DNA of 33,144 nt. Origin: Ignisphaera sp. (lineage in GTDB: Archaea > Thermoproteota > Thermoprotei_A > Sulfolobales > Ignisphaeraceae). Positions 367 through 23,585 of the stretch are shown in pieces. The notes under the pieces are model-generated. The model did no database searches. It had not been told where the DNA came from and was given only the letters and a program-made list of their open reading frames with translations. Both the position numbers and the translations under genes were made by a program. Numbering within the stretch: position 1 is the first letter of the stretch; every line of letters begins with the position of its first letter. Location: the NCBI GenBank assembly GCA_025058535.1, contig JANXEL010000053.1, positions 1-33,144 of the forward strand, written 5' to 3'.

Positions 367-2658
367 CTAATACACTTCAATGTGTGAGAAGTATTGCCTC
401 TTTTCACTAACAGTTACCGCATCCCCGACTACCTTAAATTTTCCTTCAAGCAGTACTTCCTCCGAGTTTCTTCCTATTATAACTCTGTACTCTCCAGGTT
501 CTATGACTAGCCTCATGTATCTGTCATAGAATGCCAGTGTTTCTACTGGTAGTGTAAATACTACTCTTTTTCTTTCCCCCGATCTAATGAGTATCTTCTT
601 GAATCCCTTTAGCTCCTTTACCGGCCTTGTTACCGATGAGTATTCCTTTGCTATGTAGAGCTGAACCGTCTCCTCCCCATCGAGCCTTCCAATATTCTCG
701 ACGTCTACGCCTATCTTTACGAATCCAAACGGCTTTACTTCCACAGGGTCTATTGATAGGTTGCTGTATCTGTACTCTGTATAGCTTAGCCCGAATCCGA
801 ATGGGAAGAGCGGCTTGGCCTGATACTCCAGGTATTCTCTAAATGAAGATGGTTTTCTTGAGTAGTAGATAGGCACCTGCCCCACATCATATGGTATTGA
901 AACTGGTAGTCTTCCACTTGGGTTGCAGTCACCAAATATCACATCAGCCACAGCATTTCCACCTTCCTCACCTGGGAACCACGCTTCTATAACAGCACTA
1001 ACATAAGTTAGTATTGGTGCTATGGACAGAGGTCTCCCATTTATGAGCACCAGAATTATTGGTTTTCCAGTTCTATGGAGTTCTCTAATAAGCTCCTCCT
1101 GAACACCGGGTAGTCTAATTGATGCTCTATCGACGCCCTCCCCGGATGTATACTGCGTTTCTTCAAAGGTTTTTCCGAAGAATCTTGGGCTCAAGCCGGA
1201 TCTCTCACCCATGACGGCTATAATAGCATCCGCCTCTCTAGCAATTCTGACAGCCTCCTCAAAACCCCTTCTGTCGGTAGAGGCTACGTCACAGCCCTTG
1301 GCGTAGAGAACCCTGGTGGATGATGATACCTTTCTCCTTATACCTTCAAGAATGGTGACGACCTTTATGGAGGTGTCCTCCTTTTCCTTTGGTATGTGGG
1401 CATCGTAGTGATAGTCCCCCAGAAGATTTCTCTGGCTGTCTGCATTGGGCCCTATAACTGCTACAGCACTTATGTTCTTTGGTAGTGGCAGGATTCCATC
1501 GTTCTTAAGTAGCACTATGGATTTCCTTGCAGCCTCTAGAGCAAGCCTCCTATAGTTCTCACCATCTAAAGTCTCTGGAACCTTCGACTCGTCAACAAAT
1601 GGATTATCGAATAGACCGAGCACGTACTTTAGCTTGAGTATCCTCTCGACAGCTCTGTCGATGAGAGACTCTGAGACAGTGCCCTCCTTAATAGCTTCAA
1701 CCAGCTCGCTAAAGCACACCACATCTGGAAAGTTAATATCAACACCAGCCTCCAGAGCCATTTTAAATGCCTCTCTACAGTCTCTAGCTATCCTGTGAAC
1801 TGTACCGAGCTGCACCACCCCGCCATAGTCGGATACCACAATGCCCTTGAAGCCCCATGCCCACCTCAGGATATCGGTTAGAAGCTCCCTGTTTGCGTGA
1901 CACGGAATACCATCAATCTCGTGATAAGCAGGCATTACAGATAGCGCACCAGCAACCCTTATAGCGGCCTCGAATGGATACAGGTGCTGTTCTCTAAACT
2001 CTCTAGCACCGAGGTGAACCTGAGCAATATTTCTCCCACCCTCAGAGAATCCGTGGCCTGCAAAGTGTTTTGTTGTAGCAACAACCCCTCTCGATATCTC
2101 AGTGCCTTGGAGGCCTGTGATGTAGGCGAGCCCTATTGATGAGACAAGGTATGGATCCTCACCGTACGTCTCCTCACATCTACCCCACCTGGGATCTCTA
2201 CATAGGTCTAAAACTGGGGAAAGGCAGTGCCTCGACCCTATGGACAGGACCTGCTCCCTGATAGCCGAAGCAACCCTGTACACTAGATCGGGGTCCCAGG
2301 TAGATGCTAATGCAATTGCCTGTGGGAATGCTGTTGCTGTTGGAGCCATTAAGCCAGCCAGGCACTCCTCATGAACTATAGCAGGTATGCCAAGCCTAGT
2401 CCTCTCGACAAGAAACCTCTGAATACTATTCACAGTTCTAGCAGCATCCCTAGGGCTGAGACCAATTCTAGAACCACCAACCCTAGTAATCTGGCCTATA
2501 CCAAATCTGAGCAGGTCCCTGGCTTTCTCCTCTGAAAATTTCCTTCCATCTAAAAGTTTGTCCACCGGGATAGACTGAAGCTGTGCAACCTTTTCTTCGA
2601 TAGACATTCTCTTCAGCAGCTCTTTCACCTTTGAATCAACATCCAAGTGCCTCCCCAA
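367..2658 (-). CDS. Glycoside hydrolase family 3 (beta-glucosidase / beta-xylosidase type), cytoplasmic
   Basis: This 763-residue protein has full GH3 architecture: an N-terminal barrel with ATTKHFAGHG (about 194-203), the nucleophile motif VVSDYGG with Asp277, a C-terminal alpha/beta sandwich beginning near residue 375 (SIVLLKNDGILPLP), and a fibronectin-III-like domain near 645-735 (GEETVQLYI). GH3 enzymes remove terminal beta-linked glucose, xylose or arabinose from oligosaccharides; the exact sugar cannot be read here. There is no signal peptide, so it should act on imported oligosaccharides. The start is TTG at 2658: a TATA element (ATTTTTAAAT, 2681-2690) is centred about 27 bases upstream, which implies a leaderless transcript starting at or next to this codon. 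It lies in a carbohydrate region with a Dpp-type transporter, a DUF4038 hydrolase and a GH35 enzyme. Confidence 0.95.
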   Translation of the reverse strand: MGRHLDVDSKVKELLKRMSIEEKVAQLQSIPVDKLLDGRKFSEEKARDLLRFGIGQITRVGGSRIGLSPRDAARTVNSIQRFLVERTRLGIPAIVHEECLAGLMAPTATAFPQAIALASTWDPDLVYRVASAIREQVLSIGSRHCLSPVLDLCRDPRWGRCEETYGEDPYLVSSIGLAYITGLQGTEISRGVVATTKHFAGHGFSEGGRNIAQVHLGAREFREQHLYPFEAAIRVAGALSVMPAYHEIDGIPCHANRELLTDILRWAWGFKGIVVSDYGGVVQLGTVHRIARDCREAFKMALEAGVDINFPDVVCFSELVEAIKEGTVSESLIDRAVERILKLKYVLGLFDNPFVDESKVPETLDGENYRRLALEAARKSIVLLKNDGILPLPKNISAVAVIGPNADSQRNLLGDYHYDAHIPKEKEDTSIKVVTILEGIRRKVSSSTRVLYAKGCDVASTDRRGFEEAVRIAREADAIIAVMGERSGLSPRFFGKTFEETQYTSGEGVDRASIRLPGVQEELIRELHRTGKPIILVLINGRPLSIAPILTYVSAVIEAWFPGEEGGNAVADVIFGDCNPSGRLPVSIPYDVGQVPIYYSRKPSSFREYLEYQAKPLFPFGFGLSYTEYRYSNLSIDPVEVKPFGFVKIGVDVENIGRLDGEETVQLYIAKEYSSVTRPVKELKGFKKILIRSGERKRVVFTLPVETLAFYDRYMRLVIEPGEYRVIIGRNSEEVLLEGKFKVVGDAVTVSEKRQYFSHIEVY

Positions 2659-2680
2659 TTCTGCAGAAGGATTGAGCTGG

Positions 2681-2690
2681 ATTTAAAAAT
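2681..2690 (-). promoter_or_regulatory. TATA box of the GH3 gene, leaderless
   Basis: Read on the minus strand the element is ATTTTTAAAT, centred about 27 bases before the TTG start at 2658. That leaves essentially no 5' untranslated region and supports TTG as the start. Confidence 0.55.
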
Positions 2691-2756
2691 GCATACACCT
2701 CTGCATACATACATACTCTCAAAGAGAACCTGTTGAAAATCTTGATGTCAGCATTA

Positions 2757-2933
2757 TGAATAGAGAGTGCCTTGAGAAAGATGAATTTTGGAAACAGTAT
2801 ACCTGCTGGTATCAGCTTCCGAGCAAGGTTTTACGTCTTGAAGTAGTATTCCTCACTGTAGCAGGTCATCAGCTCTTCCAGAAGACTATTGAGAAGCTTA
2901 GAGGAGAGAGTTTTACTGCTAGCATTTACTGAG
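2757..2933 (+). CDS. Possible small protein or gene fragment, 58 residues, unknown
   Basis: The gap 2691-3135 has no recognisable gene. An ATG frame on the plus strand gives a 58-residue product starting MNRECLEKDEFW and ending ESFTASIY, with a composition unlike random translation (three Trp/Tyr-rich turns, a hydrophobic VVFLTVAG core, an amphipathic end). No ribosome site precedes it. A competing minus-strand frame (2831-3070, 79 residues, TTG start, no ribosome site) overlaps it, and only one at most can be real. No family is recognised. Both may be chance or a decayed gene. Confidence 0.15.
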
Positions 2934-3135
2934 ATTAAATTAGTGGAGATGGAGTTAGCTAGATTTATGTACTGAGTATAGCTGGAGGTCTTTTGACAGC
3001 ATCTAACGAGGTCTTCATATGCAGTATGCACTGCACCAAAGATGCAAATGGAGTTGAATTCTCCCTTCAATAAATGTATGACCGTGGAGCTTTACACAAC
3101 GATTTGGATAACGATTGCTGGTGGTCTTGGCCAAT

Positions 3136-4140
3136 CTATCTCTCTACCTCGAATTTTAACGGTACAAGACTCAAAACATCGTATATTCTTACAGCTATAT
3201 TTTCGTATGCATAGATAACTTTAAAGAGTACGTGCTCTCTAGTGGAATTCCCCATGATATTGTTTTTCAATTCAGAGAGATCTCTCCTCAGATCCTCACA
3301 CATTCTCATATCATCGTACAACTCTACTAGATCTGCTGATAGAAAGAGACCCTTCCTAATAATCTTTCCAAAGATCTCATCTAGACCATCTACATCCTTT
3401 TTGAATCTATGCAGTAATTCGTTCGAAATACTGTTCAGTTGAATTAATTGAGCTATCCCTCTAGCAGCCTTCTTAGCTTCATCACCCATCTCCTCAATTG
3501 CCTTTGCCGTCATCCTGAGGTCCACTAGCTTTAGAAGGTCCCTCTGATCAATTGAGGACGAAACTATCTTCTTTCTTATGGTTCTCGTCACGTAGAAGTA
3601 CAGCCTATTTAAATCGAAATCCCTGAGGGGGACAGCCTCAGCGAGCTCACTATCTCCATTAACTAGAGCGTTTAAAGCATCTAAATACATAGACCTCGCA
3701 ATCTTACCCATATTCCTTATGAGGCTGGGAACGTCGCCTTCAACTGTAGAAAGGATTTGGAGGGTTACACTACTGCTGTCCATATCAATGATCTCTAGAC
3801 CGAGCAGAACCTGCCTAGCATCATCTAGAATCCTCTTAATCTCCCTCTCCATGGCTCCACCAGCAAAGTTTATTGTAATAATGTCGAAGCCCCTTAGATA
3901 CGATGTTATAATTGCGTTGAAAGTGCTCTTAACGTCATTCACATCAACAACTATTCTAGAGCCTAATTCACTCTTAATCCTGTTTCCAGCACCTACAGGC
4001 TGTATTTTAATAGATCCATCAGCATCTATGGTCATCTCGACAGGGGATCCTTTATCGAGGTTAAAGCTTCTCAGCCACTCCCTAGGTAGAGCAACATATA
4101 TAGAGCCACCAATACTCTGAAGCCTGTACACTCTTCTCAT
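3136..4140 (-). CDS. AbrB-PhoU regulator (phosphate-uptake-regulator-like)
   Basis: Residues 1-50 form a SpoVT/AbrB-type swapped-hairpin DNA-binding domain (RRVYRLQSIGGSIYVALPRE, then DKGSPVEM and GSIKIQPV). The rest (about 95-330) is helical and PhoU-like, with two helical repeats. The fusion is common in archaea and usually annotated as a PhoU-type phosphate regulator; the AbrB half suggests direct DNA binding. The ATG at 4140 is preceded by GGGAGGTG on the minus strand (4142-4149), a strong ribosome site. It is transcribed divergently from the transporter operon at 4249, with repeated AGTTTAAA elements in the shared intergenic region. No phosphate transporter is nearby, so its target may be the adjacent sugar or peptide transporter; that is inference. 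Confidence 0.85.
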   Translation of the reverse strand: MRRVYRLQSIGGSIYVALPREWLRSFNLDKGSPVEMTIDADGSIKIQPVGAGNRIKSELGSRIVVDVNDVKSTFNAIITSYLRGFDIITINFAGGAMEREIKRILDDARQVLLGLEIIDMDSSSVTLQILSTVEGDVPSLIRNMGKIARSMYLDALNALVNGDSELAEAVPLRDFDLNRLYFYVTRTIRKKIVSSSIDQRDLLKLVDLRMTAKAIEEMGDEAKKAARGIAQLIQLNSISNELLHRFKKDVDGLDEIFGKIIRKGLFLSADLVELYDDMRMCEDLRRDLSELKNNIMGNSTREHVLFKVIYAYENIAVRIYDVLSLVPLKFEVER

Positions 4141-4170
4141 AACACCTCCCAGATACTACAGATCCTTCCC

Positions 4171-4221
4171 AGTTTAAATAGTTTAAATATTATTAGATAG
4201 TAACCTATAAATAGTTTAAAC
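4171..4221. promoter_or_regulatory. Divergent promoter region with repeated AGTTTAAA elements
   Basis: Between the AbrB-PhoU gene (minus) and the binding-protein gene (plus) the octamer AGTTTAAA occurs at 4171-4178, 4180-4187 and 4213-4220; the last extends to the palindrome GTTTAAAC (4214-4221). The plus-strand TATA box CTATAAATA (4205-4213) directly abuts that palindrome and predicts a transcript start near 4235, 14 bases before the ATG at 4249. The other two copies can serve as the minus-strand TATA for the regulator. Their arrangement could allow autoregulation by the AbrB protein. Confidence 0.45.
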
Positions 4222-4248
4222 ATGGTAGCTATCTCTGATGTGAACTAG

Positions 4249-5823
4249 ATGCAGGGGACAGATAGCATGTCCAGGAGAATTGTAGCCGTAATCATTATAA
4301 TTTTAGCGATGGTTATCGGTTCTTCACTATACATCACCAACTGGTCAAGCAGACTGTGGAGAGACCTCCACAGCGCTAAGGAGCTTAGAATTGCCATATC
4401 AACAGACATTACAACGCTTGACATCAACTACGCTACGAGTGTTACCGACTTTGAGGTTCTTGGAAAGGTCTACGAAAGCCTATTTCGAATAGACTATGAT
4501 CCAGTTGCAAAGAAGCTCACATACTCTAAGTGGCTTGTTGAGGATTATAAGCCCATTAACGATACAAACTGGCTCTTCATACTCAGAAGCAACATAAGGT
4601 TCCATAATGGAGAGGAGCTGACGGCGTGGGATGTTAAGGCAAGTATAGAAAGATCAGCGGCGGTGAGCCCCATAGGAAAGATGCTTCTTAGGGATGCACA
4701 TGGACAGCCAATTATAGAGAGCATTATAGTGTACAATAGAACAGCGTTTATAGTAAGGTTGAAAAAGCCCTTCGTACCGCTCCTAGAGCACCTAGCACAC
4801 CTAGCCGTTGCTATAATGCCTAGAGATGTAGCGGAGAAGTATAGGGATGGTAGAATAGATAGTGTAGCTGATGTTGTGGGAACAGGTCCGTACAGACTAG
4901 TGGAGTACGTGCGGGGGCAGCACGTAAAACTTCAACGATTTAATGAGTACTGGCGTCGTGAACCGCGCATCGAAAGCGTGTTATATATGATAATAACAGA
5001 TCCGAGCACTAGAGCTGCTGCTGTAGAGACTGGTCAGGTGGATATAGCTGTTGGGATAGCCCCAGAGATGGCCATCCGATTAAAGGAGAGGGGTCTTCAA
5101 ATACATAATGAAACTGGGGTTAGATTCGTAATAGCAGCCATAAACGTTCAGAAGATCTCTGATGTAAGGATTAGACAGGCCATGAACTACGCAGTTGATA
5201 GAAGGGCTGTTGTGTATAGAATGATGGGAGGTTTTGCAGTGGTGGCGCAGAGTATAGTATCACCGATATTCCCAGGGCATGCGCAGCTGGAGAGCTACAG
5301 CTACGATCCTGAGAGGGCGAGAGAGCTAATTGAGGATGCAGGTGGTTTAAATAGAACGCTTACGCTTGTAGTCTCAACCCGCAGTCCAAAGGATGTAGAG
5401 CTTGCACAGGTGCTGCAAAGTTATCTCTCTGCAGTTGGTATAGATGTTGAGATCCAGACCATGGAGCACACAGCATTTCTGAAAAAGGTGTTTACGGAGC
5501 ACGACTTTGACTTAGCTATATACGGCCCTTCACCATCCTCGCTATACTACGGGCTAACGTACTGGAGGTCTGGGGCAGCACTCAATGCACCCCTCTACAG
5601 CAATCCCGAGGTGGATAGGCTTCTGGATGAGGCTGCTAGAGAGGGCAGCAGGGAGAGGCAGTACGAGCTGTACAGAAGGGTGCAGGAGATAGTATGGCAC
5701 GAGTGTCCAGCTATATGGCTATACTACGAAAATATAATCGTAGCTACGAGGCCTGGAATAGAGGGGCTGAAGATCCTTCCCTTCCAAATGCTCATCTTAG
5801 ATGGTGTATCTGTTAGGGGCTAG
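4249..5823 (+). CDS. Family 5 extracellular substrate-binding protein of a Dpp/Opp-type ABC transporter
   Basis: The 524-residue product matches the SBP_bac_5 family: the N-lobe opening LRIAISTDITTLD, then VYESLFR, WLFILRSNIRFHNGEELTAWDV, and DVRIRQAMNYAVDR in the middle. An N-terminal hydrophobic helix (about residues 10-28, IVAVIIIILAMVIGSSLYI) has no following Cys, so it is probably held in the membrane by an uncleaved anchor instead of a lipid. In archaea this family carries oligosaccharides as often as peptides, and the neighbouring glycosidases favour a sugar ligand. A second ATG at 4267 (MSRRIV) is a possible start; 4249 fits the TATA-predicted transcript start. It heads an operon with two permeases; no ATPase gene follows. 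Confidence 0.92.
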   Translation: MQGTDSMSRRIVAVIIIILAMVIGSSLYITNWSSRLWRDLHSAKELRIAISTDITTLDINYATSVTDFEVLGKVYESLFRIDYDPVAKKLTYSKWLVEDYKPINDTNWLFILRSNIRFHNGEELTAWDVKASIERSAAVSPIGKMLLRDAHGQPIIESIIVYNRTAFIVRLKKPFVPLLEHLAHLAVAIMPRDVAEKYRDGRIDSVADVVGTGPYRLVEYVRGQHVKLQRFNEYWRREPRIESVLYMIITDPSTRAAAVETGQVDIAVGIAPEMAIRLKERGLQIHNETGVRFVIAAINVQKISDVRIRQAMNYAVDRRAVVYRMMGGFAVVAQSIVSPIFPGHAQLESYSYDPERARELIEDAGGLNRTLTLVVSTRSPKDVELAQVLQSYLSAVGIDVEIQTMEHTAFLKKVFTEHDFDLAIYGPSPSSLYYGLTYWRSGAALNAPLYSNPEVDRLLDEAAREGSRERQYELYRRVQEIVWHECPAIWLYYENIIVATRPGIEGLKILPFQMLILDGVSVRG

Positions 5824-5826
5824 GGC

Positions 5827-6735
5827 ATGCCCTTTTTGAGGGCTGCTGGAAAGAAGATACTCATCTACACACTTCTTTTCCTGATCATAGTAGCATTTCT
5901 ACATGTGTCAGCCAGGCTTATCCCTGGGGATCCGATTACGGTTATATACGGCGAAATTGCCGAGGACGCTGCCGCTAGGTATGCTCTTGAACGCAGACTC
6001 GGTCTTGATAAACCTGTGTACATGCAGCTCTTGATGTACATAGGGAATATCCTCTCCGGCAACTGGGGGAAATCGATATACACCGGGGAGAGCGTTATTT
6101 CATTGATATCGAGAGGCTTCATATCATCACTGAAACTCGCTCTCCTTTCAACAGTGCTGGTACTAGCCATATGCAGCCTCCTGCTCTATGCAGAATTTGT
6201 GCATAGTCTAAGTAGCAGAGCGCTTCAGGTAGCGACATCACTGCTCAGCTCTATGCCCACAGCCATGTGGGGCGCTGTACTCATTCTACTCCTGACTTGG
6301 TTTAAACAGCCTGTGATTGTTGGCAGCATTCTACCTCCACTAATAGTCCTAACCATTGTGGGAGCTGGGCTTCTATACAAGGTGTTTAGATCAGCTCTAG
6401 AGTACAGCTACCAACAGCCATTTGTAGAAACCTACGTAATGATGGGGTACAGCAGGAGGTACATATTTTTGAGAGCTCTAGGCTACTCGGTTCCAACAAT
6501 CCTCTCGGCAGTAATGTATCGGGCGGGGCTAATTATAGCTGGTGCTATAGTTGCTGAAACTATGTTTATGTATCCAGGCATGGGATTCATATTCTATACA
6601 GCACTATCATCTAGAGACTACCCAGTCTTAATTGGATGGGGGGTTGCTGTTTCAGTAACCCTGATCTGCATAAACCTTGCGGTTGACCTCCTCCACAGTG
6701 TAATTGATCCAAGGGTTGCTGGCAGTGAACAATAG
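5827..6735 (+). CDS. ABC transporter permease, DppB type
   Basis: This 302-residue membrane protein has the DppB layout: an N-terminal helix, the signature RLIPGDPI near residues 30-37, a periplasmic-side segment (YALERRLGLDKPVYMQL), six helices in total and the cytoplasmic EAA-like loop YVMMGYSRRYIFLRAL that docks to the ATPase. It ends with the typical DLLHSVIDPRV. The ATG lies 4 bases after the stop of the binding-protein gene and has AGGGGC/AGGGC purine tracts before it, so the genes are one operon. Its partner is the DppC-type protein that follows. It forms half of the membrane channel for the substrate delivered by the binding protein. Confidence 0.93.
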   Translation: MPFLRAAGKKILIYTLLFLIIVAFLHVSARLIPGDPITVIYGEIAEDAAARYALERRLGLDKPVYMQLLMYIGNILSGNWGKSIYTGESVISLISRGFISSLKLALLSTVLVLAICSLLLYAEFVHSLSSRALQVATSLLSSMPTAMWGAVLILLLTWFKQPVIVGSILPPLIVLTIVGAGLLYKVFRSALEYSYQQPFVETYVMMGYSRRYIFLRALGYSVPTILSAVMYRAGLIIAGAIVAETMFMYPGMGFIFYTALSSRDYPVLIGWGVAVSVTLICINLAVDLLHSVIDPRVAGSEQ

Positions 6736-7525
6736 GCTAGCTTCAGTGGTCGTAATATCGATGCTCGTCTTGTTGCTAGCTCTAATCGACAGGCTCACCC
6801 CATATAGATATGATGATGAGGTGAATCTGGATGAGAGGCTTCTACCACCCTCGCCAAAGCACCTACTTGGAACAGACTCGCTTGGAAGGGATGTGCTTAC
6901 TAGGCTTCTGCACGGATTCAGACTCTCACTAGCACTATCACTTCTATCCATAGCTTTATCTGCAGCCGTAGGCTCTCTCATAGGGATTTCATCAGCCCTT
7001 TCCAAACCCATTCAAATTGTTGTAGATCCTCTATTCAGCTTTCTCTACGTAGTCCCATCAGTGATCGTAGCAGCTGTAATTGCCTTTACAGTGGGATTCG
7101 GACTCCATGTAGTCGCTATAGCAATAGCGCTAAGACTCCTCCCAGTATTCTACAGAATTGTGAGAACTGTAGCACTAACGGTGGCTGTACAGCCGTACAT
7201 AGAGGCCGCCAGAGCTATGGGTGCATCACTTCTGCATATAGTGCTTCACTACATAGGTAGGGAGGCTATGCGTACAGTAGCAGTTCTATCCATCTACAGT
7301 TTTCCTGAGGCACTCTCAATGGAAATCTCCCTCAGCTTCATAGGGCTTGGAGTGCAGCCACCGACACCCTCTATAGGTGGAATGCTCGCAGAAGGTGTGA
7401 GGTATGTAGCAGTAGCACCTCACATCATACTACCACCAGCAGTGGTCGTGTTTGCAACAATTCTGGTGCTTGATGTTGTTGGAGAGGAAATTGAGAAATA
7501 TAGAAGGGAGCGAACTCTAATCTAG
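6725..7525 (+). CDS. ABC transporter permease, DppC type
   Basis: This inner-membrane protein has the DppC hallmarks: a single N-terminal helix, RLLPPSPKHLLGTDSLGRDV, then five helices with the ATPase-docking loop EAARAMGASLLHIVLHY, and a C-terminal SFIGLGVQPPTPSIGGML. The frame is open from a TTG at 6704, overlapping the DppB gene; I prefer GTG at 6725, which still overlaps it and gives a 266-residue protein beginning MNNRLASV. TTG at 6704 or 6716 remain possible. The protein pairs with the upstream DppB-type permease. The operon ends here: the next 1.1 kb has no ATPase gene, although transporters of this class need two ATPase subunits or a homodimer. Confidence 0.92.
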   Translation: MNNRLASVVVISMLVLLLALIDRLTPYRYDDEVNLDERLLPPSPKHLLGTDSLGRDVLTRLLHGFRLSLALSLLSIALSAAVGSLIGISSALSKPIQIVVDPLFSFLYVVPSVIVAAVIAFTVGFGLHVVAIAIALRLLPVFYRIVRTVALTVAVQPYIEAARAMGASLLHIVLHYIGREAMRTVAVLSIYSFPEALSMEISLSFIGLGVQPPTPSIGGMLAEGVRYVAVAPHIILPPAVVVFATILVLDVVGEEIEKYRRERTLI

Positions 7526-8175
7526 TGCACTGCTGGCGGAGCATGATCTAGAGACCCCTATAACAATGAAATCCATGCAGGGTAGCTCCATTAACATGGA
7601 AGGGGTGTCCCTCTTAGATGAGGGGATCCACATATCTCTGCAACTCTTTCTATAAATCCATTATACTAAAGTGTCTGGATGGTAGACCGCGTTCAATGGT
7701 TTGATACTATTTCAAACACGCATGCATCGCGTTGATCGAATTGTTAATAATAGTGCTCACTAAGTTGGTTGGATTAAGGAGCATCTGTGTTTATCATAGG
7801 GGTGCTCTCCTAAGTTCACCGTGCTGGAGTACGTTTTTAGCACCACCCTTAATGAGCATGGAGAATCATTTGCGTTGCCAGAGCTACTTCTATTTGGCTT
7901 AATAATATTGATAGCTGCAGGTGGTTGTTCAGTTATACTGGGGTCCACATGATGATGAATGTTGCACAGGACAGAGTCTCTCCCCATCAATGGACTCAAG
8001 CAAAAAGCCTCTACCTGTGAATCAGTTTGTAGGTTTCTAATCCCTCTCACTATAACAGTTAGTGAGGGAACCTAAATAGTACCACTGTGTAGGTCTAAGG
8101 TTCTAAACTCAGATCCCTGTTAAATGCTTGATAAAAAGTGCCTGAATACTGTTAGAAAGAAGGTGAGGGCTAAAG
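7526..8175. other. Gene-poor gap with possible coding relics
   Basis: No intact gene is recognised. A frame at 7821-7952 (plus, GTG start) reads VLEYVFSTTLNEHG and continues into a hydrophobic stretch (ELLLFGLIILIAAGG), which looks like a protein fragment but has no family I recognise. A minus-strand frame of 96 residues (7760-8050) overlaps it and has no ribosome site. The repeated stop codons on both strands suggest decayed sequence. Confidence 0.4.
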
Positions 8176-8343
8176 ATGCCTAGGGATAGAACGATTACCT
8201 ATAATTCTGTAGGGGATGATTATAGTGAAAGCAAATCCGTAAGCGGAATACTGGGGTTGACAGCACGGATTAGAATTTGTGAATGCAAAGCCCACAGGAG
8301 TTTTCACCTATTTAAGATGGGGAAAATCCTTAAAAATGGTTAA
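8176..8343 (+). CDS. Possible small protein, 55 residues, unknown
   Basis: An ATG frame beginning MPRDRTITYNSVGDD and ending MGKILKNG is preceded by GGTGAGG (8162-8168), a good crenarchaeal ribosome site at 7 bases spacing. A weak A/T element (TTGATAAAAA, 8128-8137) sits about 25 bases before the expected transcript start. The product is basic in its second half, with two Cys in ICECK. No family is recognised, and it is too short to judge codon use. It may be a real small gene or a remnant. Confidence 0.25.
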   Translation: MPRDRTITYNSVGDDYSESKSVSGILGLTARIRICECKAHRSFHLFKMGKILKNG

Positions 8344-8555
8344 GAGAGTAATTGAAGAGAAGTGTAGACATTTAGCACTTCGTGGTAGGCTGTGATGAGC
8401 TTTCGGTCGCTGTGAATTTAATAGATGTGCTGTATTCCTCCCTCTGAGCTGAAGCACCAATCCCTGGAGGCTAGCATATCTCAAAGGCCACAGCGCTTCC
8501 TCTGTAAGCTCTTCACTGATTCAATTTTTAATTTGAATTGATTTTTGCAAAAGAG
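8344..8555. other. Gap upstream of the DUF4038 gene
   Basis: Nothing beyond short stop-rich frames is visible. A GTGATGA at 8392 followed by CTGA about 45 bases later recalls C and D boxes of a guide RNA, but the internal D'/C' boxes do not fit, so no RNA gene is called. Confidence 0.3.
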
Positions 8556-8564
8556 TTTATATAG
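8556..8564 (+). promoter_or_regulatory. TATA box of the DUF4038 hydrolase gene
   Basis: TTTATATAG lies in an A/T-rich stretch and predicts a transcript start near 8585. That leaves an 85-base leader to the ATG at 8670, unusually long for this window, or 50 bases to an in-frame TTG at 8634. Confidence 0.4.
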
Positions 8565-8669
8565 TTTTTCGTAATCGTATTTTGAAATTAGACGATCAGA
8601 AAGTTTACTATCCCTCTAAACATTCTCTCTTCATTGAGAGTGTGGATCCATCTATGGAAGTGTGTGGTT

Positions 8670-9941
8670 ATGGGGAAAGTACTCATTTCTGAGACCCGTG
8701 ACTACTTTCTAAAAGATGGTGAGAAGTTCTTCTATCTAGCTGACACCTGCTGGAGTGCCTTTACCAATGCTTCAATTGATGAGTGGAGCTACTATCTAGA
8801 GTACAGAATGATGCAGGGGTTCAATGCACTTCAGATAAATGTTCTTCCTCAGCACGACAGGAGCTCCTCAAGCAACTACATGGATCCATTTGAGGCTGCT
8901 TCAGATGGTGGGTGGAACTTTGGAAGGAGGAATGAGAAGTACTTTGATAGAGCTGAGAGAATGGTTGAGTTAGCTGTTAAGAAAGACTTTACCCCCGCTC
9001 TAGTGCTTCTCTGGTGCAACTACGTTAGGGGTACATGGGGTTCCAGCATAACACCGTCGAGAATAATTCCAATTGAGTACGTAGAGGATTATGTAGAGTA
9101 CGTAGTGGATAGATTTGGAAAGTACAACCCCATCTTCATAGTGAGTGGGGATACCAACTTTGAAACAAGTGAAGCAGTAGAATACTACACCAGAGCGCTG
9201 GAAATTGTAAAGAGGAGGGCACCAAATTCCCTAACCACCATGCATCTAATGGCAGGGCTGACCCTTCCAGATGTATTTGTGAGGTCACAAAATCTCGATT
9301 TCTACATGTATCAATCAGGTCACAGTAGAGAGAGACAGACACTACCATTTGAGCTTGCCCAGAAGCACTACAGTATGCCTATCAAGAGACCCATCATTAA
9401 TGGTGAGCCCTGCTACGAGGGGCATGCACACAGTGGAAAGTATGGGAGATTCAGCAACTTTGATGTTAGGAAGGCTATATGGCAGAGCCTACTATCAGGA
9501 GCTAAGGCTGGAGTATCCTATGGTGCCCACGGTATATGGAACTGGCATGTAAAGGGAAGTAGATTTATGGGGGAGGCATTCTCGGGAGAGTCATACGATT
9601 GGAGAACAGCGCTGGGGTTTCCAGGAGCATTTGATGCAGTATTTGCAAAGTGGGTATTTGAAAGATACAACTTATTTGATATAGAGCCTGCAAATGATAA
9701 GCTTCTATACAACACAGGTTCAGAGATTAGAGTCTCCATGTCTAAGGATAAGATAGTGGTCTACACACCGTACAACTGGAGCATAAAGTTGAAAACAAAT
9801 GGAGAGACATACAGATGGGATGGAATAGAACTTGCATCTAGAAGAGTCTTCAAGCCAAGGATAGAGATCTCAGGGGATTACACCATAATAAAGATGTCTG
9901 AATTTAACAGCGATCTCCTCATAATAGGCACTACTACATAG
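8670..9941 (+). CDS. DUF4038 (apiosidase-like) glycoside hydrolase with C-terminal beta domain
   Basis: The protein begins with the DUF4038 signature (DYFLKDGEKFFYLADTCWSAF) and runs through a TIM barrel. Candidate catalytic acids are Asp161 in IFIVSGDTNF and Glu246 in PIINGEPCYEG, placed as in GH140 apiosidase-type enzymes. The last 75 residues or so form a small beta domain of the kind named putative collagen-binding (KDKIVVYTPYNWSIK). GH140 enzymes remove apiose-linked groups from rhamnogalacturonan II; other DUF4038 members have unknown substrates, so only a sugar-cleaving role is claimed. No signal peptide is visible. I chose ATG 8670 (423 residues) because homology starts there; an in-frame TTG at 8634 would add 12 residues. 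It is convergent with the GH35 gene. Confidence 0.85.
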   Translation: MGKVLISETRDYFLKDGEKFFYLADTCWSAFTNASIDEWSYYLEYRMMQGFNALQINVLPQHDRSSSSNYMDPFEAASDGGWNFGRRNEKYFDRAERMVELAVKKDFTPALVLLWCNYVRGTWGSSITPSRIIPIEYVEDYVEYVVDRFGKYNPIFIVSGDTNFETSEAVEYYTRALEIVKRRAPNSLTTMHLMAGLTLPDVFVRSQNLDFYMYQSGHSRERQTLPFELAQKHYSMPIKRPIINGEPCYEGHAHSGKYGRFSNFDVRKAIWQSLLSGAKAGVSYGAHGIWNWHVKGSRFMGEAFSGESYDWRTALGFPGAFDAVFAKWVFERYNLFDIEPANDKLLYNTGSEIRVSMSKDKIVVYTPYNWSIKLKTNGETYRWDGIELASRRVFKPRIEISGDYTIIKMSEFNSDLLIIGTTT

Positions 9942-10075
9942 AAATGCAGACCTTTCATTGAAATGCTGTTCACCACGGGCTTTCCAGGCGCACAACCAGT
10001 TATGCTATCTAAAAATAGAATTTGGATAGAGTTTCGGCTGTCCATCCAATCCCGCTGCAAGGTGTGTGCCGAAGA

Positions 10076-13000
10076 TTACGATAGCTCTACACGAACGCTT
10101 CTGTGGATGTAGTAAGGTTCTACAGATAATCTGCAGATATGGGCACAGGTGCTAACAGTGTGGAGTAGTACTGCCACCTTGTTTTCTCCTCTTCTGATTA
10201 ATTGCTCCGGTATATAGAATTCCGTCTGAGGCCCTTCATCAGCGTACCTCCCTATGAGCTGCCCATTAAAGTACAGTAGAGCTCTGAAACCAGATCCTCT
10301 AATGGTTATCCTCAGAGGAGCTACAGCGTTTTCCTCCCCTTCTATATACACTCTTCCCCTCAACCACACCAACCTTCCCATAGAGTTCTCCATGTATAGA
10401 GGTAGCTCAACCAACTCCCATTTACTATCATCGTAGTCCTCTCTGTACCAACCATTAGCTAGACCCTCTGTATACTCCTTAACTCTCCACACCCCATCAA
10501 CAGCGTACTGGTACCTCTTGATTAATGGAGCAAGCCCGGGAGTCCGCTCAACAGCAATAGCAATTTCGTTCTCCCCTTCCACAATGTGGTCCGTAATGTC
10601 TACAGGCCCTATATACACACCAACAAATCTCTTATTTATGAATAGAAGTGCCCTTGGGTAGTAGTTACTGTACATAGCTCTGCTGAGATCCAGTATGTAT
10701 CTACCAACCTTTTTATCGATATAGAGGCTGCTGATGTACACTCCTGGAGATGATATCACCTCGACGTGCTTCACACCTCTGCCACTCTCAAGGTTTAGAA
10801 GTACATCCTCTACCTCCTTTGGATTGCGTAGAAAACTGGACATGCTGAACTCTACTCCATATTTCGGTGTGTACTCTACGTATCTCCAGCTATCCAACAG
10901 CTCCTCACCGATCCTACCAATATACACCCTCCCTACAATTCCATTCGGCGTGTATATCAGGCCATCATTAGGATGCCCCGTTGATTCAAGAATTATATTA
11001 AGCCTATTCTTACCCTCCTTCAGTAGCAGTGATACATCAGCTTCCAAACTGTGGTAGCCTGAGCCTATGGGAGTTCCATTAAGTTCAGCTGTGATGTAGT
11101 CATTGAAGTAGTTTATGTACATTATTGCATCCTTTATAGAATCCAAAATCTCTCTATCGAGATCAAATTCGATAGAATATACTGCATACCCGTTGAACAA
11201 CATCCCCAACTCCTCAAGCGGCTTTCCAGCTTCCGTAGTACCACCACCCTGTGGAAGAGCCTCTGTAGAGCTTCTCCAACTGTTATCTACAGAGATAACC
11301 ACTCCCCTTCCGCTGCCATCACACCCATTAATATAGAACCTGTACACCAGACCGTATACATGCTCAAGCGGAACCTGCTTACCAGCCACTGTAGCACGTG
11401 ATAGCGGCTTGAATGACACCAGTGTTACATAGCCGCAGCTATTTTCATCAAGCTCGAGCTCCACTATACTTCTTCCATCTACCGTTGAAAGTCTTCCTAC
11501 AAAGTATATGTTGGATATTAGTATCAGTGGAGGTCTCTCATCATCTATGTACCACGTTCTATTAGCTCTGGATCTGGAGACAGCAATAATGTAAAGTCTG
11601 CTTGATCCGGATTTCAGTACGGCGATTCTATCACTGCTATCATGTATGCAGCTCACCACCACCTTCCCGGCATCTAGTCTGGATACAACTACACCATCCG
11701 TGAATTCTATCTCTAGAGGTTCGCTAGCCTCTACACCCACCTCGCCAAGTTCGAGAGCATCACCATACACTATCACCACAGAATTACCATCAACGGTTTC
11801 CATCAACAAGGGTTCTGAGGAGGTGTAGAGTATTTTGAATGGTGTCCCACTGAGTCTATAGTTCAGCAGAACTATCTTTGCGTTTCTTGGAGGAACTCTG
11901 ATGCTGCCAATAAGTGGATAGTGTTCGCCTCTATAGAGCACCCTCGTATAATGGGGAGATTCAGATAGATTTCTCAGAACAACTACAGCCTCACCACTCT
12001 CCCCAACTCTAGCAAAGGCCTCGATATTACCAGAAACCGCAACTGCACCATCAACAGGCCTTGTACGGCTTATAAGGTCGTGGAACGTTTTTACAAATAG
12101 CGCCACCCTCTTTATCCCGTAGTACCTCTGCGAGAGCTCCCCCCATTCCCTAATTGCAGCCTCGTAGTCATAGGTCGTCGTTATGTACTTTCCTGTGTAG
12201 TAGCCTGGGTTTGTACCTCCATGAAACATGTACACGCTTATCCCGTTTATACCCATGGCTATGGCACTCTTAATTAGCGTCTCCGTCCACTCTGCCGGAA
12301 AGCTTCCCCTATTAGTAGGTAGAGGTGCTCCAAAAGTCGAAAACCATCCTCCCTCCAGCTCCATAAATACTTTCGGCCTTCCAGGCTGTGTGGTGGTGTA
12401 CCTCCTAACCTTACTGTCGAACTCCCGCACGCTCCATGGGGGAGGGTAGTCATCTATGGTGTTTACTATCGGCGTCTCCTCTACATACCAGTCCTCGTTG
12501 GTTATAATCGGTATGTCTCTGATGTACCTTCTGGCAATCTCATAGAGCCTCATGAGATATGGTGCATCCCCCCAAAAGTACTCGTTCTCGATCTGGAGAA
12601 GTAGCGTAGGTCCACCCTTCGGATATGTGGTTCTTTCTATAATAGGTAATACTGTTGAGTACCACTTCTCGCTATACCTAATATAGTCTGGGTCGAGCGA
12701 TCTGAGTGTATGTGACTTTTCATACAGCCAGTTTGGATGACCACCACTATCCCACTCCGAGCATATGTAAGGACCCGGTCTAGCTATAAAGAACATGCCG
12801 AGCTTCTTAACCAACTCTATGTATCCCAGTAAATCCCTACTAAAGGCTTTTGACTCATAGGGTGATTGGGGGTGCTCATCACCAAAGAGGATCCTGCCCT
12901 CCACCGGCTCATGCCAATTCCACGGAATATAGCTGGCAATGCAGTTCAGACCAGCTCTTCTAGCCTTTAGCAATCTATCGGTCCACACACCCTTGGGGAC

Positions 13001-13096
13001 TCTGAAGTAGTGGATCTCGCCACAGAATAGAAAAACCTTACTGCCACCAACAGTAACGAAACCGCTATCGTAACCTACACTTAATATACCATCCAT
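10076..13096 (-). CDS. Large glycoside hydrolase family 35 enzyme (beta-galactosidase or exo-beta-glucosaminidase type)
   Basis: The N-terminal barrel carries all GH35 signatures: GEIHYFRVP, SYIPWNWHEP, IARPGPYICSEW, the acid/base motif QIENEYFWG (Glu172 from the chosen start) and nucleophile Glu246 in FMELEGGWF. After about residue 360 come several beta-sandwich domains, including jelly-roll domains near the C-terminus (LLYFNGQLIGRYADEGPQTE). At about 1006 residues it is longer than typical bacterial GH35 proteins of 600-800. GH35 removes terminal beta-galactose; archaeal members can also be exo-beta-D-glucosaminidases, so the substrate is open. No signal peptide. The ATG at 13096 is preceded at 8 bases by GGAGGGG, and the TATA box places the transcript start near 13115, so the GTG at 13111 is less likely. 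Confidence 0.92.
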   Translation of the reverse strand: MDGILSVGYDSGFVTVGGSKVFLFCGEIHYFRVPKGVWTDRLLKARRAGLNCIASYIPWNWHEPVEGRILFGDEHPQSPYESKAFSRDLLGYIELVKKLGMFFIARPGPYICSEWDSGGHPNWLYEKSHTLRSLDPDYIRYSEKWYSTVLPIIERTTYPKGGPTLLLQIENEYFWGDAPYLMRLYEIARRYIRDIPIITNEDWYVEETPIVNTIDDYPPPWSVREFDSKVRRYTTTQPGRPKVFMELEGGWFSTFGAPLPTNRGSFPAEWTETLIKSAIAMGINGISVYMFHGGTNPGYYTGKYITTTYDYEAAIREWGELSQRYYGIKRVALFVKTFHDLISRTRPVDGAVAVSGNIEAFARVGESGEAVVVLRNLSESPHYTRVLYRGEHYPLIGSIRVPPRNAKIVLLNYRLSGTPFKILYTSSEPLLMETVDGNSVVIVYGDALELGEVGVEASEPLEIEFTDGVVVSRLDAGKVVVSCIHDSSDRIAVLKSGSSRLYIIAVSRSRANRTWYIDDERPPLILISNIYFVGRLSTVDGRSIVELELDENSCGYVTLVSFKPLSRATVAGKQVPLEHVYGLVYRFYINGCDGSGRGVVISVDNSWRSSTEALPQGGGTTEAGKPLEELGMLFNGYAVYSIEFDLDREILDSIKDAIMYINYFNDYITAELNGTPIGSGYHSLEADVSLLLKEGKNRLNIILESTGHPNDGLIYTPNGIVGRVYIGRIGEELLDSWRYVEYTPKYGVEFSMSSFLRNPKEVEDVLLNLESGRGVKHVEVISSPGVYISSLYIDKKVGRYILDLSRAMYSNYYPRALLFINKRFVGVYIGPVDITDHIVEGENEIAIAVERTPGLAPLIKRYQYAVDGVWRVKEYTEGLANGWYREDYDDSKWELVELPLYMENSMGRLVWLRGRVYIEGEENAVAPLRITIRGSGFRALLYFNGQLIGRYADEGPQTEFYIPEQLIRRGENKVAVLLHTVSTCAHICRLSVEPYYIHRSVRVELS

Positions 13097-20709: not shown

Positions 20710-22371
20710 ATGAGAAAGATGAGGATCTTCAGGTATGGCATATCGAGAGCGGTATTGGTAATTATAATAGCTATAGCCGTTGCGGTGGGTGTTGTGGGCT
20801 ACTACGCATTGGCCATAAGGGAGCAACCTCAGACTAGAAAGACCATGACCATATTTGCAAGCATATCTGAGATGACAACAGCAGATCCAAGCACAGAGTT
20901 TTCAAACTCCATTAGATGGCTTCCTCTGGTCTACGAGACTCTGCTGTGGTATGATCCAATAAAGAATGAATTCATACCAGCGTTAGCTGAAAGGTACGAG
21001 TCTAGAGATGATGGTATGACATGGGTTTTCTACATTAGAAGGGGTGCGAAGTTCCATGACAATACTCCAGTTACAGCACACGCTGTCAAGCTATCGATAG
21101 AGAGAACCATAGCCCTAGGTCAAGGGGCTGCGTTCATATGGGCTCCTGTTAACGAGATAGAGGTTGTAGACGACTATACGGTCGTGTTTAAGCTCAAGTA
21201 CCCTGCGCCACTTAATAAGATTGCTGCCTCCGGATATGGAGCCTACATATTCAGTCCAAAGGTTGTTGAGCTGGCTGGTGCCAAGAATCTGACTGATCCA
21301 AAGGTGGCTGAGTGGCTTAACAGAGGTAATGATGCTGGATCTGGACCATATAGGCTGATCAAGTGGGAGCCCGAAACTGAGGTGGTGCTTGAGAAGTGGC
21401 CTGAATGGTGGGGGTGGAAGCTTCCGGGCTACCCTCTAAAGTCCGATAAAGCTCCTGATATATACATACTCAAAATCATTAAAGATGCGGTTACACAGGA
21501 GAGGCTGCTGCTGGCTGGGGATATAGATGTAGCCCAGTATGTTCCTCTGGAGGATCTGGAGAAGCTGAAGGGTGATCCAAAGGTACAAGTTGTTATCAAG
21601 CCGAGCTTCCAGAACCTTCTAATGCTAATAAACACAAAGAAGCCTCCTTTGAATAATGTGCTTGTACGGAGAGCTATAGCCCACGCCATACCATATGAGG
21701 ATATAGTTAAGATAGCTAGATCGGGATTAGCTAGAATTGCAAGTGGTCCCATACCACATGGTATGTGGGGACACTTCGACAACCTAACCTACACCTACGA
21801 CTTGGATCTTGCCAAGAGACTCCTAGCGGAAGCTGGTTATCCAAACGGTGTAGACAGGCCCCTTCTACTCGTTTACACAGCTGGCGATATATATGAGAAG
21901 AGAACTGCAGAACTGATAGCTGTTAACCTAGCAAAGATTGGTATAAACGTTGAGATAAGGCCTATGAGCTGGGAGGAACAGTGGGCACTTGCACAGAGAG
22001 GATGGGAGGATCCGGAGGCAGTACAGGACCTGTTCCTATTCTACTGGTGGCCAACGTACATAACACCATTCGACTTCCTGTACAACATGTTCCACAGCGA
22101 GAGCAAGGCGTTCAATCTATGCTATTATGAGAATCAGGAGTTTGAAAAGCTGATAATGGAGGCATCTGTTCTGGAAGGCTATGATCAGGCAAGGGCGCTA
22201 GAGATGTACTATAAGGCACAGCAAATACTTTACCGGGATGTTCCAGCTGTACCTCTATGGGACATGATATATGTGGAGGTTGGATCTAGGAAGGTAGGAA
22301 ATCTTGACAAGGCTATTAATCCGGCATACCCAACAGCAGTATTTGCTCAAGTACTGAGCATCGAAGAATAG
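20710..22371 (+). CDS. Family 5 substrate-binding protein, second Dpp/Opp-type transporter
   Basis: The 553-residue SBP_bac_5 protein has an N-terminal hydrophobic anchor (about residues 14-33, AVLVIIIAIAVAVGVVGYYA) without a lipobox Cys. Its ligand-binding domain begins TMTIFASISEMTTADPSTEF and includes VYETLLWYDP, FYIRRGAKFHDNTPVTAHAV and RRAIAHAIPYEDI. It should collect an oligopeptide-like or other amide ligand outside the cell and hand it to the two permeases downstream. A gap of 190 bases with its own promoter signals separates it from the permease gene. The divergent DUF917-racemase operon and downstream M20 hydrolase suggest the ligand is a substrate for those enzymes. It is a distant paralogue of the protein at 4249. 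Confidence 0.92.
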   Translation: MRKMRIFRYGISRAVLVIIIAIAVAVGVVGYYALAIREQPQTRKTMTIFASISEMTTADPSTEFSNSIRWLPLVYETLLWYDPIKNEFIPALAERYESRDDGMTWVFYIRRGAKFHDNTPVTAHAVKLSIERTIALGQGAAFIWAPVNEIEVVDDYTVVFKLKYPAPLNKIAASGYGAYIFSPKVVELAGAKNLTDPKVAEWLNRGNDAGSGPYRLIKWEPETEVVLEKWPEWWGWKLPGYPLKSDKAPDIYILKIIKDAVTQERLLLAGDIDVAQYVPLEDLEKLKGDPKVQVVIKPSFQNLLMLINTKKPPLNNVLVRRAIAHAIPYEDIVKIARSGLARIASGPIPHGMWGHFDNLTYTYDLDLAKRLLAEAGYPNGVDRPLLLVYTAGDIYEKRTAELIAVNLAKIGINVEIRPMSWEEQWALAQRGWEDPEAVQDLFLFYWWPTYITPFDFLYNMFHSESKAFNLCYYENQEFEKLIMEASVLEGYDQARALEMYYKAQQILYRDVPAVPLWDMIYVEVGSRKVGNLDKAINPAYPTAVFAQVLSIEE

Positions 22372-22378
22372 ACTATAT
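22369..22378. repeat. 10-base palindrome after the binding-protein gene
   Basis: ACTATATAGT is a perfect palindrome overlapping the TAG stop of the binding-protein gene. It may mark a partial stop or RNA-processing point before the permease genes, but it is short and could be chance. Confidence 0.2.
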
Positions 22379-22500
22379 AGTGCAGCTGATGCTATGCGTA
22401 CCATCCACATATTTAGCGAAATCGGACATCTATATTGTGAAAGTGTGTGGAGAGCGCACATGGTATGTATCGGTCTGCACACCAATAATGTACGCATCAC

Positions 22501-22508
22501 TTATTTAA
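22501..22508 (+). promoter_or_regulatory. Possible internal promoter before the permease genes
   Basis: TTATTTAA lies 55 bases before the ATG at 22563 and would start transcription near 22530. AAGGAG (22550-22555) follows as a ribosome site. It would let permeases and ATPases be made separately from the binding protein. Confidence 0.4.
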
Positions 22509-22562
22509 ACTCTGTTTTGTTTATTATACACGTAATATGTTGACCATCCAAGGAGCTAAATA

Positions 22563-23585
22563 ATGCCAATCAATAGAGAGTATATAATCAAGAGGGCTCT
22601 GTCTCTCGTATTTGTGGTTCTCGGAGTGGTAGTGGTAACCTTCATCATCACTAGGGTAATTCCAGCTAGACCTGAGCTTCTATGGACAGGTCCCCATGCA
22701 ACAATTGAGCAGATAGAGCGTGCTAGAAGAGAGCTCCACTTGGATAAACCCATCCACGTGCAGCTGTGGCACTACTTTGTAGACCTGTTTTCAGGTAACT
22801 GGGGCGTTTCATGGAGGACAAAAATGCCGGTCCTACCATCCATACTAAGTTCCCTTCCAGCAACAATAGAGCTAGTGGTATCCGCCTTCATATTAGCTAC
22901 AGCTGTTGGAATACCTCTTGGTATATCAGCAGCTATCAGAAGGGGAAGTGGTGTGGATAGCGTGGTAAGGATATTTAGTGTTGTTGGAGCCTCCACACCC
23001 GTATTCTGGCTAGCTCTACTTCTACAACTAGCATTTTGCAACTGGCTCGGTTTACTACCAGCTGCAAAAAGGGTTGATGAGTACATAGCTATCTCCACAG
23101 GTTTTAAGCCACTCACAGGCTTCTACACTATTGATAGCGTGGTCCAAGGCAACATACCCGTGCTTATAGATGTGTTGAGGAGGATGTTCCTCCCAGCAGT
23201 GGTCCTCTCGCTATATCCAATGTGCCTAAGTGCCAGAATGACAAGAGCTCTCACCCTAGAGGTTCTCAGCGAACTGCATGTGAGGAGCTCCATTGCGTGG
23301 GGCATTCCACGTAGTAGGGTTCTCTATAAATACGTTCTGAGAAATGTTATAGCTCCTGTTGTAGCATCCCTTGGACTATCGTTCGGCTACACCATCGTGG
23401 GTGCCTTTATGGTTGAGATAATATTTGTTTGGCCCGGTATAGGGTACTACACTGCTATGTCGCTCCTCAGCTACGACTATCCAGCTATAATTGGTTCTGT
23501 AATCTTTGTAGCGATCATATACTCTGTAATAAATACAGCTATAGATATACTTCACGCCACCATAGATCCTAGGGTGGAGCTCTAG
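22563..23585 (+). CDS. ABC transporter permease, DppB type, second system
   Basis: A 340-residue membrane protein of the DppB family: the N-terminal helix carries LVFVVLGVVVVTFIITRVIPARPE, where the usual GDP after IP is replaced by ARP, then LHLDKPIHVQLWHYF, GNWGVSW, six helices, an ATPase-docking loop (VRSSIAWGIPRSRVLYKYVL) and the C-terminal DILHATIDPRVEL. The ATG has AAGGAG about 7 bases upstream. The stop codon overlaps the GTG start of the next gene by one base. It forms the channel with the DppC-type partner. Confidence 0.94.
   Translation: MPINREYIIKRALSLVFVVLGVVVVTFIITRVIPARPELLWTGPHATIEQIERARRELHLDKPIHVQLWHYFVDLFSGNWGVSWRTKMPVLPSILSSLPATIELVVSAFILATAVGIPLGISAAIRRGSGVDSVVRIFSVVGASTPVFWLALLLQLAFCNWLGLLPAAKRVDEYIAISTGFKPLTGFYTIDSVVQGNIPVLIDVLRRMFLPAVVLSLYPMCLSARMTRALTLEVLSELHVRSSIAWGIPRSRVLYKYVLRNVIAPVVASLGLSFGYTIVGAFMVEIIFVWPGIGYYTAMSLLSYDYPAIIGSVIFVAIIYSVINTAIDILHATIDPRVEL

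Follow-up and report, generated by a model that had tools for sequence, protein, structure and literature searches.

A predicted apiosidase in an Ignisphaera genome

We analysed a 33,144-nucleotide stretch of DNA, here called the window, which is contig C64 (JANXEL010000053.1) of a metagenome-assembled genome (MAG) of Ignisphaera sp. (G000; 1.72 Mb in 103 contigs, 94.1% complete). The window encodes a PF13204 protein of 423 residues that is probably, with a likelihood that we set at about 0.63, an apiosidase that acts inside the cell, from an uncharacterised clade sister to glycoside hydrolase family 140 (GH140). Apiose, a rare sugar with a branched chain, occurs in plant walls and in secondary metabolites of plants. 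The enzyme would be a retaining glycosidase of clan GH-A, active in the cytoplasm, where it would remove terminal beta-D-apiose from small imported plant apiosides, such as the apiosyl-glucosides of flavonoids, with Asp161 and Glu246 as its two catalytic acids. These substrates may enter through the ATP-binding cassette (ABC) transporter encoded nearby. Export was assessed by simple hydropathy, which is not a signal-peptide predictor: 15-residue stretches beginning at each of the first 45 positions were averaged and the highest mean was taken. This value was 0.58 for the PF13204 protein, 0.36 for the window's GH3 enzyme and 1.35 for its GH35 enzyme, versus 3.18 and 3.47 for the two ABC binding proteins of the window. 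By this measure both binding proteins have a hydrophobic N-terminus and none of the three glycosidases does, in agreement with a previous reading of the window from sequence only, which had placed the glycosidases inside the cell.

Fold and active site of the PF13204 protein

The PF13204 match scored 290 bits against a gathering cut-off of 26.5. The better start is the ATG at 8670, which is also where the alignment of eight relatives begins. In a sequence search against the PDB the protein matched 8t9w with 106 bits, BT_1012 with 70 and 4qfu with 50. A structure model built with the window protein and seven relatives reached a pLDDT of 85 and a pTM of 0.88, and its top Foldseek match was the GH140 apiosidase 8t9w (E 1.9e-30). 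In a VIA comparison with 8t9w, 400 residues were aligned with a Z of 42.0 and a root-mean-square deviation of 2.7. The other apiosidase-type entries followed with Z values of 38.4 (5msy, BT_1012), 38.0 (3kzs) and 37.6 (4qfu), the next entry reaching 27.4. As modelled, the protein has an apiosidase fold. It has in common with BT_1012 (5msy/3kzs) and with the mangrove metagenome enzyme 8t9w the PF13204 domain, the fold over about 390-400 residues, the catalytic Asp and Glu, and equivalents of W63, W149, Y166 and Y287. It differs from them in being only 20-22% identical in structural alignments, in belonging to a separate clade and in lacking a hydrophobic N-terminus. No match to PF12904 was found in its C-terminal part at E 0.1.

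The residues aligned to BT_1012 Asp187 and Glu284 are Asp161 and Glu246, both invariant in all 23 rows of the window clade (see below). In PMC4032388, Asp187 is given as nucleophile/base and Glu284 as proton donor of BT_1012, an assignment made by structure alone. In our model, strands 155-157 and 242-245 lie before Asp161 and Glu246, the positions expected being the ends of strands 4 and 7. The usual layout of clan GH-A would swap the nucleophile and proton-donor roles of Asp187 and Glu284. Seven BT_1012 residues were checked, the pocket being as named in PMC4032388. Six of them (W63, W149, Y166, D187, E284 and Y287) have identical counterparts throughout both clades (23/23 window-clade rows and 15/15 GH140-clade rows). 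At the position of the seventh, Y174, the window protein has F and its clade is variable. The partner of W149 is W115 in the multiple alignment or W123 in the pairwise one, neither of which varies in the eight-row alignment. As a control, eight PF13204 rows from outside the two clades indicate that some of these pocket residues are general to PF13204.

Phylogenetic position and distribution

We built a tree of 46 rows and 411 columns, leaving out fragments, near-duplicates and sequences with no real match (L002, L022, L024, L025, L029, L030, L031, L038, L051 and L092). Also outside the tree were L026 (G351), which belongs on the GH140 side as it is 52-65% identical to L044, and the G110 homologue, which was fetched later; L029 (G078) falls on the window side. 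The window protein belongs to a clade of 23 rows (15 archaeal, including the window, and eight bacterial) with support of 96/98 and a stem of 0.94. Beside it lies a clade of 15 rows (support 98/92) with 8t9w and BT_1012, which holds all five rows named glycoside hydrolase family 140 by NCBI, three DUF4038 rows (L087, L088, L090), three PDB chains and L042-L045; this clade of solved or NCBI-named rows is what we call GH140, and CAZy's own family limits may differ. Within the window clade, the archaeal rows group at 100/99 with the bacterial row L037, whose MAG is named by the scheme used for the Ignisphaera MAG L032, which suggests a hot-spring origin, and whose protein is about 66% identical to the window protein. 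The long rows L036 and L041 fall inside the window clade and the long rows L086, L087 and L095 outside it. The sequence-only reading had called the protein GH140-like, to be doubted if it fell outside GH140 with its catalytic acids missing. It falls outside, yet both acids are kept. The description as apiosidase-like is supported, while membership of GH140 in the narrow sense is not supported, since the tree places it in a sister clade.

PF13204 matches were found in 30 of 398 genomes sampled from the phylum, which we take to be Thermoproteota, and both window-clade and GH140-clade proteins are present in this sample. The window clade occurs in 17 of the 398, spread over eight genera and seven families; 15 of these were assigned by the tree, G110 by 67% identity and G078 by a piece at a contig end with 64% identity over 86 residues. 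This patchy distribution suggests transfer between lineages. The gene is found in two of the 11 Ignisphaera genomes, and the closest named match to the window protein comes from an Ignisphaera MAG (81% identity over the protein). The sequence-only reading had called apiose or RG-II (rhamnogalacturonan II) use unusual for a hyperthermophilic archaeon. The gene itself is not rare; by title or abstract opening, no characterised archaeal apiosidase appeared in our literature searches, most subscription papers being outside their scope.

Four archaeal PF13204 proteins, L042-L045 (G063, G288, G280 and G189), lie inside the clade of 8t9w and BT_1012 and are separate candidates for archaeal apiosidases. 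About 4.6 kb from the gene of L043 (G288) is a weak relative of the apiose-type isomerase (27-29%, E 1e-10).

Bacterial members of the clade near apiose-type genes

D-apiose clusters of isomerase, kinase and transketolase genes (apsI, aplK, aptA and aptB) are described in Pectobacterium and, without apsI, in E. coli, where D-apiose supports growth of strains that have the aptA/aptB cluster (PMC13001218). Clusters of this kind include, or lie near, some bacterial members of the window clade. In Listeria the order is a LacI regulator, the isomerase, two half-transketolases (with identities of 45% to AptA and 39% to AptB of E. coli), an FGGY kinase, a beta-glucoside phosphotransferase system (PTS) and then the clade member. 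The Listeria isomerase is 71% identical to that of Monoglobus, in which isomerase, transketolase halves and kinase are followed by a DUF5060-PF13204 protein. Two clade members are present in Streptococcus moroccensis (L146:13474-14808 and L035:9992-11284). One follows, at a distance of a few genes, a group of transketolase halves (identities of 67% and 64% to those of Listeria), isomerase and kinase, and a PTS EIIC gene comes after it. Beside the other copy are genes for a PTS EIIC and for a BD-FAE esterase. In Hespellia the order is PTS, clade member, two LacI-like genes (by sequence reading), isomerase and kinase.

In L037, the clade member is immediately followed by a gene whose product shares 51-52% identity with the isomerase found in the AptA-AptB clusters of Rahnella and Sodalis, and then by an FGGY kinase gene; upstream are a DRL-type oxidoreductase and an alcohol dehydrogenase. 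On the Rahnella and Sodalis plasmids that carry these reference clusters, the genes for AptA, AptB, an isomerase of the same kind and a kinase are consecutive. Compared with E. coli SE15, identity is 79% for the Rahnella AptA and 76% for the Rahnella AptB, and from its position and family the isomerase of these clusters would be apsI. The clostridial genome SKW22 has a set of the L037 type (isomerase 53% identical to that of L037, kinase, DRL oxidoreductase, alcohol dehydrogenase) on a different contig from its clade member. Clade members thus stand within or close to apiose-type sets of isomerase and kinase in four bacterial lineages (Listeria, Hespellia, Streptococcus, for one paralogue, and L037), with a split transketolase in two of the four. 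An isomerase profile matched five of seven bacterial genomes at E 1e-20. The match was strong in four of them and weak in one; two of the four, L037 and L039, had helped to build the profile.

Other clade members neighbour a PTS gene (Samsonia), a GH1 gene (L036) or a GH4 gene (the Thermotogota piece), and that of Limosilactobacillus lies in a plasmid region with nucleoside genes and without any apiose-type gene. Because the bacterial neighbours are of PTS and phospho-glucosidase type, the comparison suggests that the substrates may be small apiosides such as apiosyl-glucosides, rather than rhamnogalacturonan II (RG-II).

Apiose genes in the archaeal genomes

As a set, apsI/aplK/aptA/aptB were not found in G000, and in the archaeal neighbourhoods of the clade such genes are unlinked to the PF13204 gene. 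The nearest relative used for comparisons, a second Ignisphaera genome (G333, the MAG of L032), carries an apsI-type isomerase, 27-30% identical to the bacterial ones, at a different locus from its clade gene. The isomerase region (C2, 46.8-65.7 kb; L079, L080) also holds FGGY kinase, transaldolase-type, class II aldolase and aldehyde ferredoxin oxidoreductase genes and, by sequence reading, ABC transporter genes. Contig C57 of G000 (L077), matched by eye, breaks inside the kinase gene that precedes this region in G333, so the absence of the isomerase from G000 may be an assembly gap. The one PF02952 protein of G000 is a full three-domain L-fucose isomerase. The single Transket_pyr match of G000, on C48, belongs to a split pair whose halves share 34% and 39% identity with AptA and AptB, respectively, with a context visible over 2.6 kb only. 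We looked for a complete archaeal apiose pathway and did not find one.

In the phylum sample, the apsI-type isomerase was present in 7/16 genomes carrying the clade and in 23/382 others (Fisher p 5e-5), or by genus in 4/8 versus 8/155 (p 0.001). Matches were counted up to E ~1e-70; with G078 added the numbers become 7/17 and 23/381 with unchanged genus counts, the p values being those of the earlier counts. We give this co-occurrence little weight, as isomerase and clade gene share a contig in none of the seven genomes holding both and kinship confounds the statistic. No apiose-type kinase was detected at E 1e-8 in the isomerase neighbourhoods of G206, G015, G051 and G006, and those of G015 and G006 contain one-piece transketolase-like genes.

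Evidence on the sugar released

Several results weigh against an apiosidase. Literature searches found no assay of any clade member. The tree separates the window protein's clade, with its stem of 0.94, from that of the characterised or solved GH140 enzymes. The archaeal rows L023, L060 and L061, which are outside both clades, retain five of the six pocket residues (Y141 is L), so that pocket conservation supports the sugar and does not prove it. On the bacterial side, the L037 kinase is only 22-26% identical to kinases of apiose clusters, no transketolase was seen near the L037 clade member, and no isomerase was matched at E 1e-20 in Samsonia or in the Thermotogota genome, the gene of the latter being a short piece. 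On the archaeal side, the 14 neighbourhoods compared, each of 6 to 20 kb, contained no relative of the apiose isomerase, kinase or transketolase at E 1e-15 or 1e-3. In G000 no apsI-type isomerase was found at E 1e-20, an absence that is soft in a MAG 94% complete. Of the four FGGY matches in this genome, the one close to AplK in sequence (37%) lies beside a gene for a flavin adenine dinucleotide-dependent oxidoreductase and is read as a glycerol kinase.

These points leave some room for the clade enzymes to remove a different terminal sugar, for instance beta-linked arabinofuranose or galactose, the apiose-type bacterial neighbours then concerning part of the clade only. Besides the long stem and the archaeal neighbourhoods without apiose genes, such a shift would fit the clade-specific changes at otherwise fixed positions (e.g. 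G185>S159, W197>Y173, N236>Y212 and Y312>W271) and the other glycosidase-type genes that directly neighbour the clade gene at five of the 14 archaeal loci. We nevertheless consider it unlikely, given that six of the seven checked BT_1012 residues are identical in all rows of both clades and that apiose-type genes lie close to clade members in four bacterial lineages.

The sequence-only reading had proposed a pectin or RG-II side-chain set, in which an apiosidase-like enzyme, GH35 and GH3 would act on branched oligosaccharides imported by the transporter. BT_1012 does have a role in RG-II degradation, but it falls in the other clade. GH78 rhamnosidase genes are present in G000 (C53, 307 bits) and in G333, which fits RG-II and rhamnosylated plant glycosides alike; an L-fucose isomerase gene is present, GH35 adjoins the PF13204 gene in both Ignisphaera genomes that have it, and a GH53 galactanase is reported for Ignisphaera aggregans in PMC8447715. 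Neither GH28 polygalacturonase nor GH53 was found in G000 or G333, and in the 13 archaeal neighbourhoods other than that of G333 no counterpart of the window's GH3, GH35 or transporter genes was seen. The proposal is not supported, because GH28 was not found and the bacterial members sit with PTS, GH1 or GH4 genes and apiose-type genes, and we regard it as improbable.

An apiosidase thus remains our preferred reading for the window protein, apiose use by the archaeon itself being unproven. Its extension to the whole sister clade is more tentative: the clade, as a family or subfamily of its own, might consist of cytoplasmic apiosidases for small plant apiosides, patchily distributed in at least seven families of the phylum, including hyperthermophiles, with apiose stripped or used by a route other than transketolase. 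If the archaeal clade does release apiose, apioside use would reach hot-spring archaea, and very heat-stable apiosidases would become available for flavour and flavonoid chemistry. Proteins labelled only DUF4038 would also gain a function; among them are both annotated window-clade rows of the plasmid collection (Listeria H2 and Limosilactobacillus H3).

Neighbouring genes and conservation of the locus

The genes around the PF13204 gene are listed in Table 1.

Table 1. Genes surrounding the PF13204 gene, with positions in the window (ORF, open reading frame).
Feature	Position	Strand	Evidence
GH3, beta-xylosidase/alpha-arabinosidase type, 763 aa	367-2658	-	ORF and PF00933/PF01915/PF14310; no signal
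MazE/AbrB-PhoU domain protein, probable regulator	3136-4140	-	Pfam match
ABC solute-binding protein, family 5 (SBP_bac_5)	4249-5823	+	Pfam; N-terminal hydrophobic segment
ABC permease (BPD_transp_1)	5827-6735	+	Pfam
ABC permease (BPD_transp_1)	6704-7525	+	Pfam
PF13204 'Apiosidase', apiosidase-like enzyme, 423 aa	8670-9941	+	Pfam 290 bits; longer ORF 8634-9941
GH35 beta-galactosidase, 1011 aa	10076-13111	-	Pfam match and Glu motifs

The GH3, transporter, PF13204 and GH35 genes announced as a set by the sequence-only reading are all present, their ORFs and Pfam matches agreeing with its description; the GH35 frame, whose upper limit it had put at 13096 (a position that fits the next ATG), reaches 13111 in full. 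The word set is too strong, because the genes lie on both strands and the GH3 is not kept nearby in the nearest relative. In G333 (L051), GH35 (70%) and PF13204 (81%) genes are again convergent neighbours, with the binding protein (72%), two permeases and the PhoU gene a few kb away. The GH3 counterpart (82% identical) is on another contig, with an L-fucose isomerase gene, a DUF72-like gene (by sequence reading) and GH4. Of the 14 archaeal neighbourhoods, no other than L051 shares the GH35, transporter and PhoU genes with the window, and its GH3 is missing from all 14. Since the G333 GH3 is elsewhere and counterparts of GH3, GH35 and the transporter are lacking at the other 13 loci, the arrangement is a loose neighbourhood rather than a conserved set, and the GH3 is probably an unlinked neighbour. 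An operon of GH3, transporter, PF13204 and GH35 genes was considered and rejected on the same grounds of conservation. The glycosidase-type direct neighbours at five loci are GH35 (L051), GH35/DUF5597 (L056 and L057), GH67N/DUF4838 (L049) and DUF4838 (L050).

From their sequences, GH3 and GH35 look like an ordinary beta-xylosidase and beta-galactosidase. The best solved matches of GH3 are the beta-xylosidases 7zb3 (859 bits) and 8c7f (856 bits), and it has an SDY motif with Asp277. With the xylosidase/arabinosidase model NF052329 it scored 722 bits, below the cut-off of 1050, so that any exact activity is tentative. GH35 matched the solved beta-galactosidases 8qqh (824 bits, residues 28-1005 aligned) and 8uid (666 bits). 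It is a single chain, while the entry 8uid has two, with 738 and 227 residues. Its catalytic domain is present, with Glu176 in an ENEY motif and Glu251 in a MELEGGW motif, which we take to be the catalytic residues. GH35 would act on terminal galactose and GH3 on terminal xylose or arabinose of other imported oligosaccharides, and GH35 may use the same uptake as the apiosidase.

The genes at 4249-7525 (+) are part of a peptide/sugar-type ABC transporter with no ATPase gene beside them. The gap at 7526-8669 held no sign of a decayed ATPase or other gene apart from one match of 16 residues (E 8e-4), which we attribute to chance, and a 66-bp element. The transporter may borrow ATPases. A second family-5 ABC system at 20710-26424, with a binding protein, two ATP-binding proteins and two permease-like genes (read as permeases from sequence), looks complete.

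The 66-bp element (about 8384-8449) matches sequence upstream of the G333 homologue with 89% identity, the rest of the 1.1-kb gap being unalignable. Within it, GTGATGA and CTGA stand at opposite ends of a 56-base span (8392-8447, +), an arrangement that, we presume, resembles an archaeal C/D box guide RNA; an Rfam scan of the window gave zero matches at gathering scores. At the contig end, an open frame at 3-308, read by eye, encodes long runs of Pro-Thr-Pro-Ser and, towards the C-terminus, a hydrophobic segment, as in the stalk of a protein on the cell surface.

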